Source: Opitutales bacterium
GTDB lineage: Bacteria; Verrucomicrobiota; Verrucomicrobiia; Opitutales; T3Sed10-336
NCBI GenBank assembly: GCA_007130045.1
Contig: SLTG01000001.1
Location: 1-44,863, forward strand
Direction of reading: 5' to 3'
DNA: 44,863 bases
A program made the translations under genes and the position numbers. Below the pieces are notes generated by a model that worked only from the letters and a program-made list of their open reading frames with translations, was not told the DNA's origin and ran no database searches. Positions 6,291 through 40,555 of the stretch are shown here, one piece after another (position 1 is the first letter of the stretch; each line of letters starts with the position of its first letter).

Positions 6291-6330
6291 GGCGGGAAAC
6301 GTGGTTCGAATTCGAACCACGTTTTCCGCC
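6291..6330. repeat. 40-bp near-perfect palindrome downstream of glnII
   Basis: Two 20-nt arms meet with no spacer at GTTCGAA|TTCGAAC; only one pair departs from perfect complementarity (a G-T). The flanks (CTGCGGAAAT on the left, GCATCCGGCAG on the right) continue the pairing imperfectly. There is no T run, so it is not a simple terminator. It may be a transcript 3'-end stabiliser, a protein-binding site or a mobile palindrome. Confidence 0.8.
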
Positions 6331-37136: not shown

Positions 37137-38468
37137 ATGGCAACGGCATCGGAAAAAGAAGAAAAGAAAAACGTGCACGCGTGGTGCGTTTACGACTGGG
37201 CGACCAACGGGTACCAGGTTACCACCGCGTCCGCTCTCTTCCCCGTTTTCTTCGTCGAAGCCATCGTACCGGAGGGGTTTTCGGTTTTCGGCCGTGAGAT
37301 ACCGGCCACCGGCCTGTGGGGATTCGGCCTCGGAATCGCCGCGCTGATCGTTTTCGCGCTGGCTCCAATGCTGGGCGCGATCGCCGATCTTACCCTTCTC
37401 AAAAAACGTTTTCTCATGGCCTTTGCGTGGAGCGGCTGCCTTTTCGCATCCCTCCTTTTCTTCGTTACTCCCGGGATGGTCTGGCTTTCGCTGCTGACCT
37501 TCATAGCCGCACAGGTCTGCTATACGTCCGGAAACGTCTTCTATAACGCATTCCTTCCCGGACTTGCCACCGATGAAGATATGGATCGCATTTCCGGCCG
37601 GGGCTTTGCATACGGATACATTGGCGGTGCGCTGCAGTTCGGTCTGGCGCTGGCCCTGGTCACCGGTCACGACGCGGTCGGTCTTTCCGAGGAAACGGCC
37701 ATTCGCGTATCCCTGCTGACCGCCGGCCTCTGGTGGCTCGGTTTCTCCACGTACACCTTTATTCACCTCAAGGAAACCCCTCCTCCCGGATTCCAGGAGA
37801 CGGTATTTTCAAGTCCCCTCTCCGCCGTCCGGCACGGCGTACGCCAGACCTGGACACTTGCCCGGCGCCTTCCGAAATTCCCGCCCCTCCTGATATTCCT
37901 GTTGGCATTTTTTTTCTATAACGACGGCATTCAGACCGTGATCGGAGTATCCGCCGCGTACGCGCGGAGCGAGCTCGACCTTCCGACACAGTACATAATG
38001 ATCGCGTTCTTGATCATCCAGTTCGTCGCGTTCGGAGGAGCACTGCTGTTTTCACGGCTTGCCGGGATCATGGGAACGAAAGGGGCGGTCCTGCTTTCAC
38101 TCGCAATCTGGAGCGGAGTCGTGATTTACGCCTATTTTCTGAGGGAAGGAGACGTTGTCGGATTTTTCGTTCTGGGCATCATCGTCGGGCTCGTTCTCGG
38201 CGGAAACCAGGCCCTCAGCCGTTCGCTCTTCGCCAGCATGATTCCGCGGGAGGCATCGGCGAACTTTTTTGGATTCTTTACCGTCTTTCACAAACTCTCG
38301 GCGATTATGGGGCCCATGCTATTCGGACTCCTCGCCACGATTTTCGGAGCGGCACGGCCCGCCATCCTGGCATTAATCGTCTTTTTTCTTATCGGCGCCG
38401 TTCTACTATCCTGCGTCGACGTTAAAAAAGCCCGCGCCTCACGCGGGTTCTGGCTGGAGAAAGCGTGA
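37137..38468 (+). CDS. MFS transporter, UMF1/Atg22-like family
   Basis: A 443-residue integral membrane protein with 11-12 hydrophobic segments. The start (HAWCVYDWATNGYQVTTASALFPVFF) is characteristic of the UMF1/Atg22-like branch, whose bacterial members begin with WxxYDWANSA-type motifs. GAIADLTLLKKRFLMAFAW near residue 80 corresponds to the MFS motif A region, and NQALSRSLFASMIPREASANFFGFFTVFHKLSAIMGPMLFG near 365 to the conserved C-terminal part. The substrate is unknown; amino-acid-type efflux is a guess from yeast Atg22. It follows thiC but has no thiamine-specific feature. Confidence 0.85.
   Translation: MATASEKEEKKNVHAWCVYDWATNGYQVTTASALFPVFFVEAIVPEGFSVFGREIPATGLWGFGLGIAALIVFALAPMLGAIADLTLLKKRFLMAFAWSGCLFASLLFFVTPGMVWLSLLTFIAAQVCYTSGNVFYNAFLPGLATDEDMDRISGRGFAYGYIGGALQFGLALALVTGHDAVGLSEETAIRVSLLTAGLWWLGFSTYTFIHLKETPPPGFQETVFSSPLSAVRHGVRQTWTLARRLPKFPPLLIFLLAFFFYNDGIQTVIGVSAAYARSELDLPTQYIMIAFLIIQFVAFGGALLFSRLAGIMGTKGAVLLSLAIWSGVVIYAYFLREGDVVGFFVLGIIVGLVLGGNQALSRSLFASMIPREASANFFGFFTVFHKLSAIMGPMLFGLLATIFGAARPAILALIVFFLIGAVLLSCVDVKKARASRGFWLEKA
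38424..38447 (-). terminator. Minus-strand terminator inside the 3' end of the MFS gene
   Basis: CCCGCG (38431-38436) and CGCGGG (38442-38447) pair around a 5-nt loop. On the minus strand the stem is followed by C and six T's (complement of 38424-38429). No minus gene lies just to the right. On the plus strand only TTCT follows, so it might weakly terminate there as well. Confidence 0.5.
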
Positions 38469-38694
38469 ACCCGTACCGCCCGGCGGCGATTTGATGGCGG
38501 AGTTCCGCGGCGATTTGCCTCGGAAGCGAACCAAATCACGAAGCGACTCCGGTCGAAACCGGTGAAAACATCAAACTCTAAACAGCTCGAACGAATTGCA
38601 GCATCAATCCAACCCCGCAACCGCCATTCGTTCCAACCCGGATGCCTTGGCGCATAATTTCTCCATTTTCGTGTTGCGCTTACGGTCTTCGGCC
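38469..38694. other. Intergenic region upstream of the metal ABC operon
   Basis: 226 nt without a recognised gene. The right end contains the palindrome-flanked promoter: TTGCGC at 38674-38679 is a possible -35. The left half holds two imperfect GGCGATTTG phrases (38484, 38510) of no known meaning. Confidence 0.4.
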
Positions 38695-38722
38695 TATTTG
38701 TTTTGATTAATCAAAACAAATA
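38695..38722. promoter_or_regulatory. Perfect 28-bp palindrome, candidate metalloregulator operator
   Basis: The half-site TATTTGTTTTGATT (38695-38708) is followed immediately by its exact reverse complement up to 38722. It lies 1 nt before the ATG at 38724 of the Mn/Fe-type binding protein and overlaps the likely -10 region. Operators of DtxR/MntR, Fur or Zur repressors are AT-rich palindromes in this position. No such regulator gene is in the window, so the regulator class is inferred. Confidence 0.75.
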
Positions 38723-38723
38723 T

Positions 38724-39701
38724 ATGCCAGCAATGAAAATTTTAATTTGCCAGACCGGACGTTTATCAAGGCTGATGAGAGCCGCCGCCGTCGCTCCGTT
38801 TTTCCTGGCGGGATTCGGCTGCGGAGTGGAAAATCACAACGCCGAAGACAACGACGGCCCGGTGGTCGTCACCAGTTTCTCGATCCTCGGAGACTTCGCG
38901 AGCCGGGTCGCCGGCGACAGCGCCAACGTCCGCGTCCTGGCCCCGGCCGGATCGGAAGTCCACGAATGGGAACTCAGCCCGCGCAATTTCATCGATCTGG
39001 CAACAGCGGACCTGGTGTTCACCAACGGCCTCGGCCTCGAACAATGGCTCCCCCAGCTCGAAGCCACGGTTCCCGACGGCGTACGAATCGTGCCGCTGGC
39101 AGAGGAGACCGGCGCCACCGTCATTTCCATTCGACTCGGCGACCTCCGGGGCGAGCCCGACCCGCACATGTGGATGGACCCGCGCGCAGCCGCACGTTAC
39201 GTGGAGGTCATTCGCGACCGTATGATCGAGCTGGATCCCGACAGCGAAGAGGTCTATCGCCAGAACGCGCGGAACTACCTCGACGACCTCGCCGCCCTCC
39301 ACGATGAACTGACCGAAACGTTCGCGGCGATTCCGGACGAAAAGCGCCTGCTTGTCACCAGCGAAGCCGCGTTCCTCTACTTCGCCGACGCCTACGGCTT
39401 CGATCACGACGGGATCTGGGGAAACAACGCCGAACATGAGGGCACCCCTCAGCAGATAGCGAGAATCATCGACCTGATCCGCGACCGCCGGCCCGCCGCG
39501 CTCTTCTGGGAAAGCACGATCACGGACCGGTACGTCCGCAGCGTTTCCGACGATACCGGCGTTCCGATCGCCGGCCCCCTGTACGTCGATTCCCTGGGAC
39601 GGGCCGGAACGGGAGCCGAAACGTACATTGAGCTGATGCGCACGAACGCGCGCGTGATTTCCGAAGCGGTGGCCGCCGGCTTGACGGAAGGAAAAAGCTG
39701 A
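38724..39701 (+). CDS. Mn/Fe-type ABC transporter substrate-binding lipoprotein
   Basis: A 325-residue cluster A-I solute-binding protein. A hydrophobic leader ends in the lipobox LAGFGC (Cys33), so it is probably membrane anchored. The four metal ligands can be placed by comparison with PsaA: His in SEVHEWELSP, His in EPDPHMWMDP, Glu in TSEAAFLYFADAYGF and Asp in YVDSLGRAG. The His-His-Glu-Asp set fits manganese/iron binders (PsaA, MntC, SitA) rather than zinc binders, which have a third His. The His-rich loop of ZnuA is absent. An ATG three codons downstream (38733) is an alternative start. It overlaps the ATPase gene by 1 nt. Confidence 0.87.
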   Translation: MPAMKILICQTGRLSRLMRAAAVAPFFLAGFGCGVENHNAEDNDGPVVVTSFSILGDFASRVAGDSANVRVLAPAGSEVHEWELSPRNFIDLATADLVFTNGLGLEQWLPQLEATVPDGVRIVPLAEETGATVISIRLGDLRGEPDPHMWMDPRAAARYVEVIRDRMIELDPDSEEVYRQNARNYLDDLAALHDELTETFAAIPDEKRLLVTSEAAFLYFADAYGFDHDGIWGNNAEHEGTPQQIARIIDLIRDRRPAALFWESTITDRYVRSVSDDTGVPIAGPLYVDSLGRAGTGAETYIELMRTNARVISEAVAAGLTEGKS

Positions 39702-40555
39702 TGCAGAACGTGAGCCCAACAATGATCGAGCGCACACGCGACCGGCTGCGAACAGTCAGAAAGCCGCGTACCGCCGCGGCGGAAATCCACGCGCCCGCGG
39801 TCAAAGCGGAAAACGTGTCGGCAACCTACGGCGGGCCACTCGTTCTCAGGCGCCTCAATCTCACGCTTCCCAGGGGAGAGTTGATCGCTGTGATCGGCCC
39901 CAACGGCGCGGGCAAATCCACATTTTTCAAACTCCTGAGCGGCGTCATGCGACCGAACGAAGGTTCGATTACCGTATTCGGCGAGCCGGTACGCTTTCAG
40001 CGAAAACGCAGCGCGATCGCCTATGTGCCGCAGGAGGAACAGATCGACTGGGATTTTCCGATATCCGTTTGGGACGTGGTCCTCGCAGGACGGTTCGGAC
40101 GGATGCGCGAGGAGGGAGTCCCCCGCAGATTCCTTCCGCCGGGGTTTTTCACCAACGGTCACCGCACGGCGGTCAGAGACGCCCTGGACGCGGTCGATAT
40201 GCTGGACCTTTCCCGGCGGCCGGTCGGAGCGCTGTCCGGGGGACAGAAGAAACGGGTCTTTCTTGCCCGCGCCCTTGCCCAGGAGGCGCAGTTGCTCCTG
40301 CTCGACGAGCCGCTTGCCGGCGTTGACGGGCGGTCGGCCGAGTTGATCTTCGACGTGTTCGCCCGGGCGCGAAGGGAAGGACGCACCCTGGTGCTGGTCA
40401 CGCACGATCTCGCTTCGGCCGAAAAGTACGCGGACCGGATCGCCCTTCTCAACCGAACTGTCGTGGCGGAAGGAGCGCCGTCCTCGGTCCTGACTATGGA
40501 AAACCTGGCGCAGGCGTTCGAAGGAGGCTTTATCCCGGCCAAGTACGAGAAATAA
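39701..40555 (+). CDS. Metal ABC transporter ATP-binding protein
   Basis: A 284-residue ABC ATPase energising the importer. Walker A GPNGAGKST is at 66-74, the Q-loop follows in AYVPQEEQIDWDFPISVWDVVLAGR (a phrase typical of Mn/Zn/Fe importer ATPases), the signature is LSGGQKKRVFLARAL and Walker B LLLLDEPLAGVD, with the switch His in LVTHDLA. An unusual N-terminal tail of ~30 basic residues precedes the domain. Its start overlaps the binding-protein stop by 1 nt, and the permease follows after 4 nt. Confidence 0.92.
   Translation: MQNVSPTMIERTRDRLRTVRKPRTAAAEIHAPAVKAENVSATYGGPLVLRRLNLTLPRGELIAVIGPNGAGKSTFFKLLSGVMRPNEGSITVFGEPVRFQRKRSAIAYVPQEEQIDWDFPISVWDVVLAGRFGRMREEGVPRRFLPPGFFTNGHRTAVRDALDAVDMLDLSRRPVGALSGGQKKRVFLARALAQEAQLLLLDEPLAGVDGRSAELIFDVFARARREGRTLVLVTHDLASAEKYADRIALLNRTVVAEGAPSSVLTMENLAQAFEGGFIPAKYEK

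Follow-up and report, generated by a model that had tools for sequence, protein, structure and literature searches.

Among described systems, the TroR-controlled tro operon (troABCDR) of Treponema is the closest to the locus analysed here. According to the promoter/operator oligonucleotide table of PMC2628430, the tro operators are ATTTTGATATATCAAAAT in T. denticola and ACTTTGATGCATCAAAAT in T. pallidum; both have TTTGA-N4-TCAAA arms about an even centre and precede the gene for the binding protein of a metal ABC importer. TroR repression in the operator experiments of the same paper reached 96% for the native T. denticola operator and 88% for that of T. pallidum, and 23% when four bases were changed. 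The passages on metal ligands in PMC2628430 place N10 of T. denticola TroR where DtxR has M10 and MntR has D8, and E102 in the position of C102, with both Treponema TroRs identical at all seven ligand positions; T. denticola TroR answers to Mn and Fe, and T. pallidum TroR is cited there for Mn or Zn. We also draw on parts of PMC8464063 and PMC1978522.

Regulators of the DtxR type act on Mn or Fe supply elsewhere. Sections of PMC3327659 describe DR2539 of Deinococcus radiodurans as a repressor answering to Mn and Fe whose target is mntH, Bacillus subtilis MntR controls Mn uptake (PMC2628430, in part), and in Chlamydia an importer of the type considered here, YtgABCD, is placed under the DtxR-type repressor YtgR in the relevant portions of PMC6504234 and PMC5599777. 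Here we describe a perfect 28-bp palindrome from an Opitutales genome that is very probably, judging from sequence comparison, the operator through which a TroR-type member of the DtxR family controls a three-gene importer.

The palindrome and the importer operon

The window, by which we mean the whole 44,863-nt stretch of DNA analysed, contains at 38695-38722 the palindrome TATTTGTTTTGATT followed directly by AATCAAAACAAATA, two 14-nt arms that are 100% complementary with a spacer of 0 nt and have no assigned strand. A preliminary description of this DNA had held such a perfect 28-bp palindrome to be improbable by chance, and the statistics confirm it: base composition predicts 0.00025 perfect palindromes per window whose arms reach 14 nt or more, the longest arm in 60 first-order Markov simulations was 11, and after the two 28-bp palindromes of the window the next longest arms are 8. 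The second of these, AAACGTGGTTCGAATTCGAACCACGTTT at 6297-6324, is unrelated to the one before the importer; it is flanked on one side by a glutamine-synthetase-like ORF and on the other by a sulfatase ORF that precedes an alginate-lyase ORF, and a search with its inner 22-mer, allowing up to 3 mismatches, gave one site in the genome and none in 7 relatives.

Within the palindrome, the 18-bp core GTTTTGATTAATCAAAAC (38700-38717, likewise without strand) is the counterpart of the published TroR operators as listed in the table cited above, matching that of T. denticola at 14/18 positions and that of T. pallidum at 13/18 with ten arm positions identical, and it is the best match to either Treponema operator anywhere in the window. 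The preliminary description saw in the palindrome no obvious copy of a textbook MntR, Fur or Zur box; this is borne out, but the sequence belongs to a published kind, the TroR box. The same description had the palindrome overlapping a probable -10 element, an overlap that we do not claim because a consensus scan found 0 sigma-70-like sites in 38440-38800.

The palindrome stands just upstream of a TroA/ZnuA-type importer gene and is followed by three genes in the same direction, on the + strand: a metal-binding protein of the ZnuA/TroA/MntC type (PF01297, E 2.5e-78; 38733-39701, with an alternative start at ATG 38724), the importer ABC ATPase (39701-40555) and a single ABC-3 permease (PF00950; 40560-41549). 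The closest NCBIfam models for the importer are of Mn, Fe and Zn types, and the top models for the ATPase of Mn and Mn/Fe types, all below the curated cut-offs; the best solved relatives of the binding protein are YfeA, Mn transporter subunits and PsaA. Its proposed His-His-Glu-Asp ligand set holds up, in that H77, H145, E211 and D286, numbered from ATG 38733, align with the same letters in YfeA. The palindrome had further been said to end 1 nt before the ATG of this gene. Either of two codons in one frame may be the start: ATG 38724, which indeed comes 1 nt after the palindrome, or ATG 38733. In the orthologues, four in number, alignment to the window protein begins 37-84 nt past the box core, compared with 16 nt for ATG 38733 here. 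Upstream lies a co-directional gene for an Atg22-like transporter, whose end is ~230 nt from the box. As had been noted, no regulator gene adjoins the operon: none was recognised among the ORFs from 34000 to the window end, 4 of which were Pfam-scanned. Compared with the Treponema tro operon, the window has its regulator on another contig and one permease in place of troC and troD; it also belongs to a different phylum, and its symmetry reaches 28 bp. Two further ZnuA-type importer operons occur in the same genome (L069 on contig C57, L070 on contig C114), and no box of up to 3 mismatches was found at either.

Conservation of the box

We searched 8 genomes of the window's family, its own included. 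A binding protein of 60-100% identity is present in 5/8 (own included), and in 5/5 the box lies at the same place, its 16-nt core carrying 0, 1, 2, 2 and 3 mismatches. The orthologous importers, those of G001, G002, G003 and G006, have binding proteins 60-68% identical to that of the window and 1-3 core mismatches, and when the upstream region of each was Markov-shuffled, a box as good as the real one seldom arose (P at most 0.002). A strong homologue of the regulator described below is present in 4/5 of the box-bearing family genomes, the exception being G006 (67% complete), which has the box and no regulator homologue. In G004, G005 and G007 no strong regulator homologue was found, and the binding proteins there are distant (about 32-33%).

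These results bear on the notion that the palindrome is not regulatory at all, being instead the remnant of a mobile element, a terminator or an RNA element. Consistent with such an origin, the 28-bp symmetry of the window copy exceeds the ~20 bp retained in relatives and the outermost bases are unconserved; against it, a conserved version occupies the same place in four orthologues, the core has a single exact copy in the genome, there is no loop, and neither a terminator-like site on the palindrome nor an Rfam match in 38300-39000 (E up to 1) was found. On the Rfam result we set the RNA element aside, and we consider a non-regulatory origin as a whole very improbable.

Across the order, TWTTTTGATTAATCAAAAWA, when 2 mismatches or fewer were allowed, gave 79 sites in 61/273 genomes, compared with 19 sites in 18/273 for the reversed pattern. 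A strong regulator homologue is present in 45/61 motif-bearing genomes and 66/212 others (odds ratio 6.2, shared ancestry ignored); with the control pattern the corresponding figures are 8/18 and 103/255 genomes (ratio 1.2). Part of the order-wide matches are probably chance, because 16/61 motif-bearing genomes lack a strong homologue and some boxes fall inside ORFs (L087, L091 and L113, three of the hand-picked sites considered below). In 39 hand-picked sites, the best per locus, the arms TTTGA and TCAAA are invariant and the middle four and outer bases vary, giving a consensus of about TATTTTGATTAATCAAAATA. Among 27 binding-protein loci, a script that lists near-perfect palindromes only reported a box at L017, L018 and L022; the remaining members are not proven box-free because degenerate boxes such as those at L011, L013 and L019 escaped the script as well.

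A TroR-type regulator in the same genome

The search for dtxR/mntR, fur and zur genes that the preliminary description had proposed yielded one DtxR-family and four Fur-family proteins in the genome (96.7% complete). The DtxR-family gene, P0001, lies on contig C121, away from the importer contig, and encodes a 231-aa protein with all three domains of the family: DNA-binding, metal-binding/dimerisation and FeoA. Its best solved relatives are 5zr4, 8pvt, ScaR and SloR. The ligand positions of P0001 are N8, H79, E83, H98, E102, E105 and H106, with K11 besides, so that 7/7 ligand residues are as reported for TroR. By this sequence criterion P0001 is of the TroR kind, because its ligand set matches that reported as common to both Treponema TroRs, with N at the D8/M10 position together with H79, E83, H98, E102, E105 and H106; T. 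denticola TroR also shares its FeoA/SH3-type C-terminal domain. DR2539 resembles P0001 in having K at the position of MntR's E11, H98 and an SH3-like domain within the DtxR family (PMC3327659, in part), a likeness drawn at the level of the protein. B. subtilis MntR, of the same family, differs in having D8 and E11 and, on the account given in PMC2628430, no FeoA/SH3-type domain, where P0001 has N8, K11 and such a domain. The metal sensed here is predicted to be Mn and/or Fe; Fe is plausible because FeoA and FeoB are among the box-bearing genes of relatives.

Autoregulation of the P0001 gene through an adjacent box was considered and rejected, the best match there having 6 mismatches. Of the homologue loci across the order, the best 30, that of the window's genome among them, have a box with 2 or fewer mismatches in 2 cases and lack one in 28; both findings count against the operator reading proposed here. 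One in-frame stop inside the aligned stretch was observed in the regulator homologues at L137, L139, L140, L142, L146, L147 and L152.

Genes accompanying the box in relatives

To the matches listed we applied a selection by eye, omitting less symmetric ones, which gave 44 sites from 38 genomes with up to ~4 kb of flank on each side; two G018 sites at contig ends are possibly one site. Gene starts falling between 60 nt upstream and 300 nt downstream of the box centre were counted, and the counts do not describe a random sample, as the sites were chosen by eye. A ZnuA-type gene follows the box at 14 of these sites and a DtxR-family gene at 13, both being present at 7; at 3 an ATPase gene follows as well. 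None of the query genes follows the box at 24/44 sites, and 18 ORFs from 17 of these 24 were Pfam-scanned. They comprise six TonB receptors, two PF13557 outer-membrane proteins and, at two sites, two FeoA and one FeoB, besides one each of MauG-like, antiporter, FG-GAP and HTH proteins and three without a family. The importer loci L125, L126 and L127 each have two boxes, of which the first precedes the binding-protein gene and the second that of the ATPase.

In other bacteria importers of this sort are under Fur-family control, and with four Fur-family proteins encoded in this genome the palindrome might be the operator of a Fur, Zur or Mur type protein. The Fur box looks different from the palindrome, however, whose sequence matches the TroR operators, and with the four own Fur-family proteins as queries a Fur-family gene follows the box at 0/44 sites (loci L072-L127), compared with a DtxR-family gene after 13/44. 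We therefore set the Fur/Zur/Mur operator aside on the 0/44 count and give it scant probability. The least credible reading replaces the standalone regulator by a DtxR domain fused to the permease, as in YtgC/YtgR. In its favour are the 17 permease ORFs in relatives' loci that carry a DtxR-like part and the report, in passages of PMC6504234, that Chlamydia YtgR, cleaved from its permease, represses its own operon; against it, the window permease (329 aa) is unmatched by the DtxR query, and searches of the window's genome with PF01325 and with P0001, the standalone protein, each gave a single match.

Reading by the standalone TroR-type protein is the interpretation followed below. The likeness to Chlamydia extends to the importer type and to the permease fusions of the window's relatives; the difference is that the window permease is unfused. 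The comparison is of importer and permease type (PMC6504234, PMC5599777).

Regulator-side scan of GTDB genomes

As query for a scan of GTDB genomes we aligned P0001 with 14 homologues, chosen as box neighbours, and kept the best 80 loci, 79 of which had enough upstream DNA (L206 repeats G191). Among these 79 DtxR homologues from the best 80 loci, 24 carry TTTGANNNNTCAAA within 250 nt upstream; the reversed pattern gave 0, and shuffling a mean of 0.09 with a maximum of 2 in 200 rounds. Sixteen of the 24 box-bearing homologues are labelled outside Verrucomicrobiota, in planctomycetes, Acidobacteriota groups and one Cyanobacteria. The box accompanies 23/46 homologues of one recognition-helix type and 1/33 of the other, figures uncorrected for ancestry; as evidence of helix-to-box covariation this is suggestive but not significant on independent pairs (median p 0.25), and we did not retain it. 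TTTAG-like repeats were seen by eye at some Bacteroidota homologues, but the strict pattern TTTAGNNNNCTAAA occurred upstream of 0/79. On a spirochaete contig with tro-like gene order (L190) the arms occur just before the binding-protein gene.

Further boxes in the genome

TTTGANNNNTCAAA occurs exactly five times in the genome, the window copy included; the loose pattern, at 1 mismatch or fewer, has 49 matches there and its reversal 40, so it is not enriched. The half-site search of the genome suggested by the preliminary description thereby led to two more likely targets, a porin and a YceI-like protein. The box of the outer-membrane porin (PF07396; contig C50, L242:741-2053) is TTTGACGAATCAAA, some 14 nt before the likely start, and in G002 the corresponding position before an 85% identical porin orthologue reads TTTGACTAATCAAA. 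The box of the YceI-like gene (PF04264; contig C1, L244:1367-2002) is TTTGACATGTCAAA, 34 nt before the aligned start; orthologues have exact arms in G002 (57%) and G001 (55%) and a one-mismatch core in G003 (53%). By mismatch score the YceI box of the window's own genome is not notable (6 mismatches in the 16-mer, P 0.57), and the case for it rests on the exact arms and the orthologues. No box was found at four loci of distant porin homologues (25-33% identity) or at the 26% identical YceI-like gene of G005. The cores at C1:3878, well inside a 643-aa ORF, and at C83:19849, a few bases past the first start codon of a 653-aa ORF, were taken as chance, and a further two sites, which differ from the 16-mer by 2 mismatches and fall within unrelated ORFs or at their edge, were likewise rejected. 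On sequence grounds, then, the porin and YceI-like genes are likely further targets, and because conserved boxes precede them the regulon is probably a small one and not a single operon. Bradyrhizobium offers a precedent in MnoP, a porin linked to Mn and controlled by a metalloregulator.

Discussion

Several observations favour the suggestion, already made in the preliminary description, that the palindrome is a candidate metalloregulator operator: it is conserved in orthologues, it stands repeatedly before importers and DtxR-family genes, and it is nearly identical to the published TroR operators. In the mechanism we propose, when Mn(II) and/or Fe(II) is sufficient in the cytoplasm, metal-loaded P0001 dimers would bind around TTTTGATTAATCAAAA; lying over the importer promoter/start region, the bound TroR-type dimers would block transcription of the three-gene importer, and when metal is scarce the regulator would release and the importer would be made. 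The porin and the YceI-like protein, with their similar boxes, would probably be made together with the importer. Observed are the sequence and conservation of the box, its neighbouring genes, the domains and ligand residues of the regulator and the match to experimentally tested operators; we infer binding in this organism, repression as the direction of control, and the metal.

The operator is of a known kind in a new place, and its spread over several phyla together with the extra targets is the fresher part. From the distribution of sequence matches, a TroR-type switch is apparently used beyond Treponema, in Opitutales, planctomycetes and some Acidobacteriota too, which suggests that this type of metal switch reaches far beyond spirochaetes; it may also pair inner-membrane metal import with an outer-membrane porin. 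An orphan palindrome is in this way tied to a named regulator class, and it provides a testable box for metal regulation in these phyla. An exact-string search of the open-access literature, which differently written boxes would escape, found no such motif in print for them.

More tentatively, and with doubts that outweigh our confidence, the TroR box could be the hub of an undescribed Mn/Fe regulon across Verrucomicrobiota, Planctomycetota and Acidobacteriota. Such a regulon would comprise TroA-type importers, outer-membrane routes (the PF07396 porin here; TonB receptors and PF13557 proteins in relatives), FeoA/FeoB, a YceI-like protein and a MauG/phosphonate-type ABC operon ending in the regulator gene, and the permease-fused DtxR domains of the same operons would read the same box; if they do, Chlamydia YtgR would be a derived form of the system.

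The MauG/phosphonate-type arrangement was observed at L246:394-5596 in G037, of the f5 family, the closest to the window's regulator once the window's family is left aside: a box heads a row of MauG-like, phosphonate-type binding protein, ATPase, permease and DtxR-family genes, possibly a metal importer of another ABC type. Like Chlamydia YtgC, the permease of many relatives' importers includes a fused DtxR-like domain, and a separate DtxR-family gene is often found next to it; L077, L093, L111, L118, L125 and others are such fusion loci, as are L163-L168, L190 and L239 among others.
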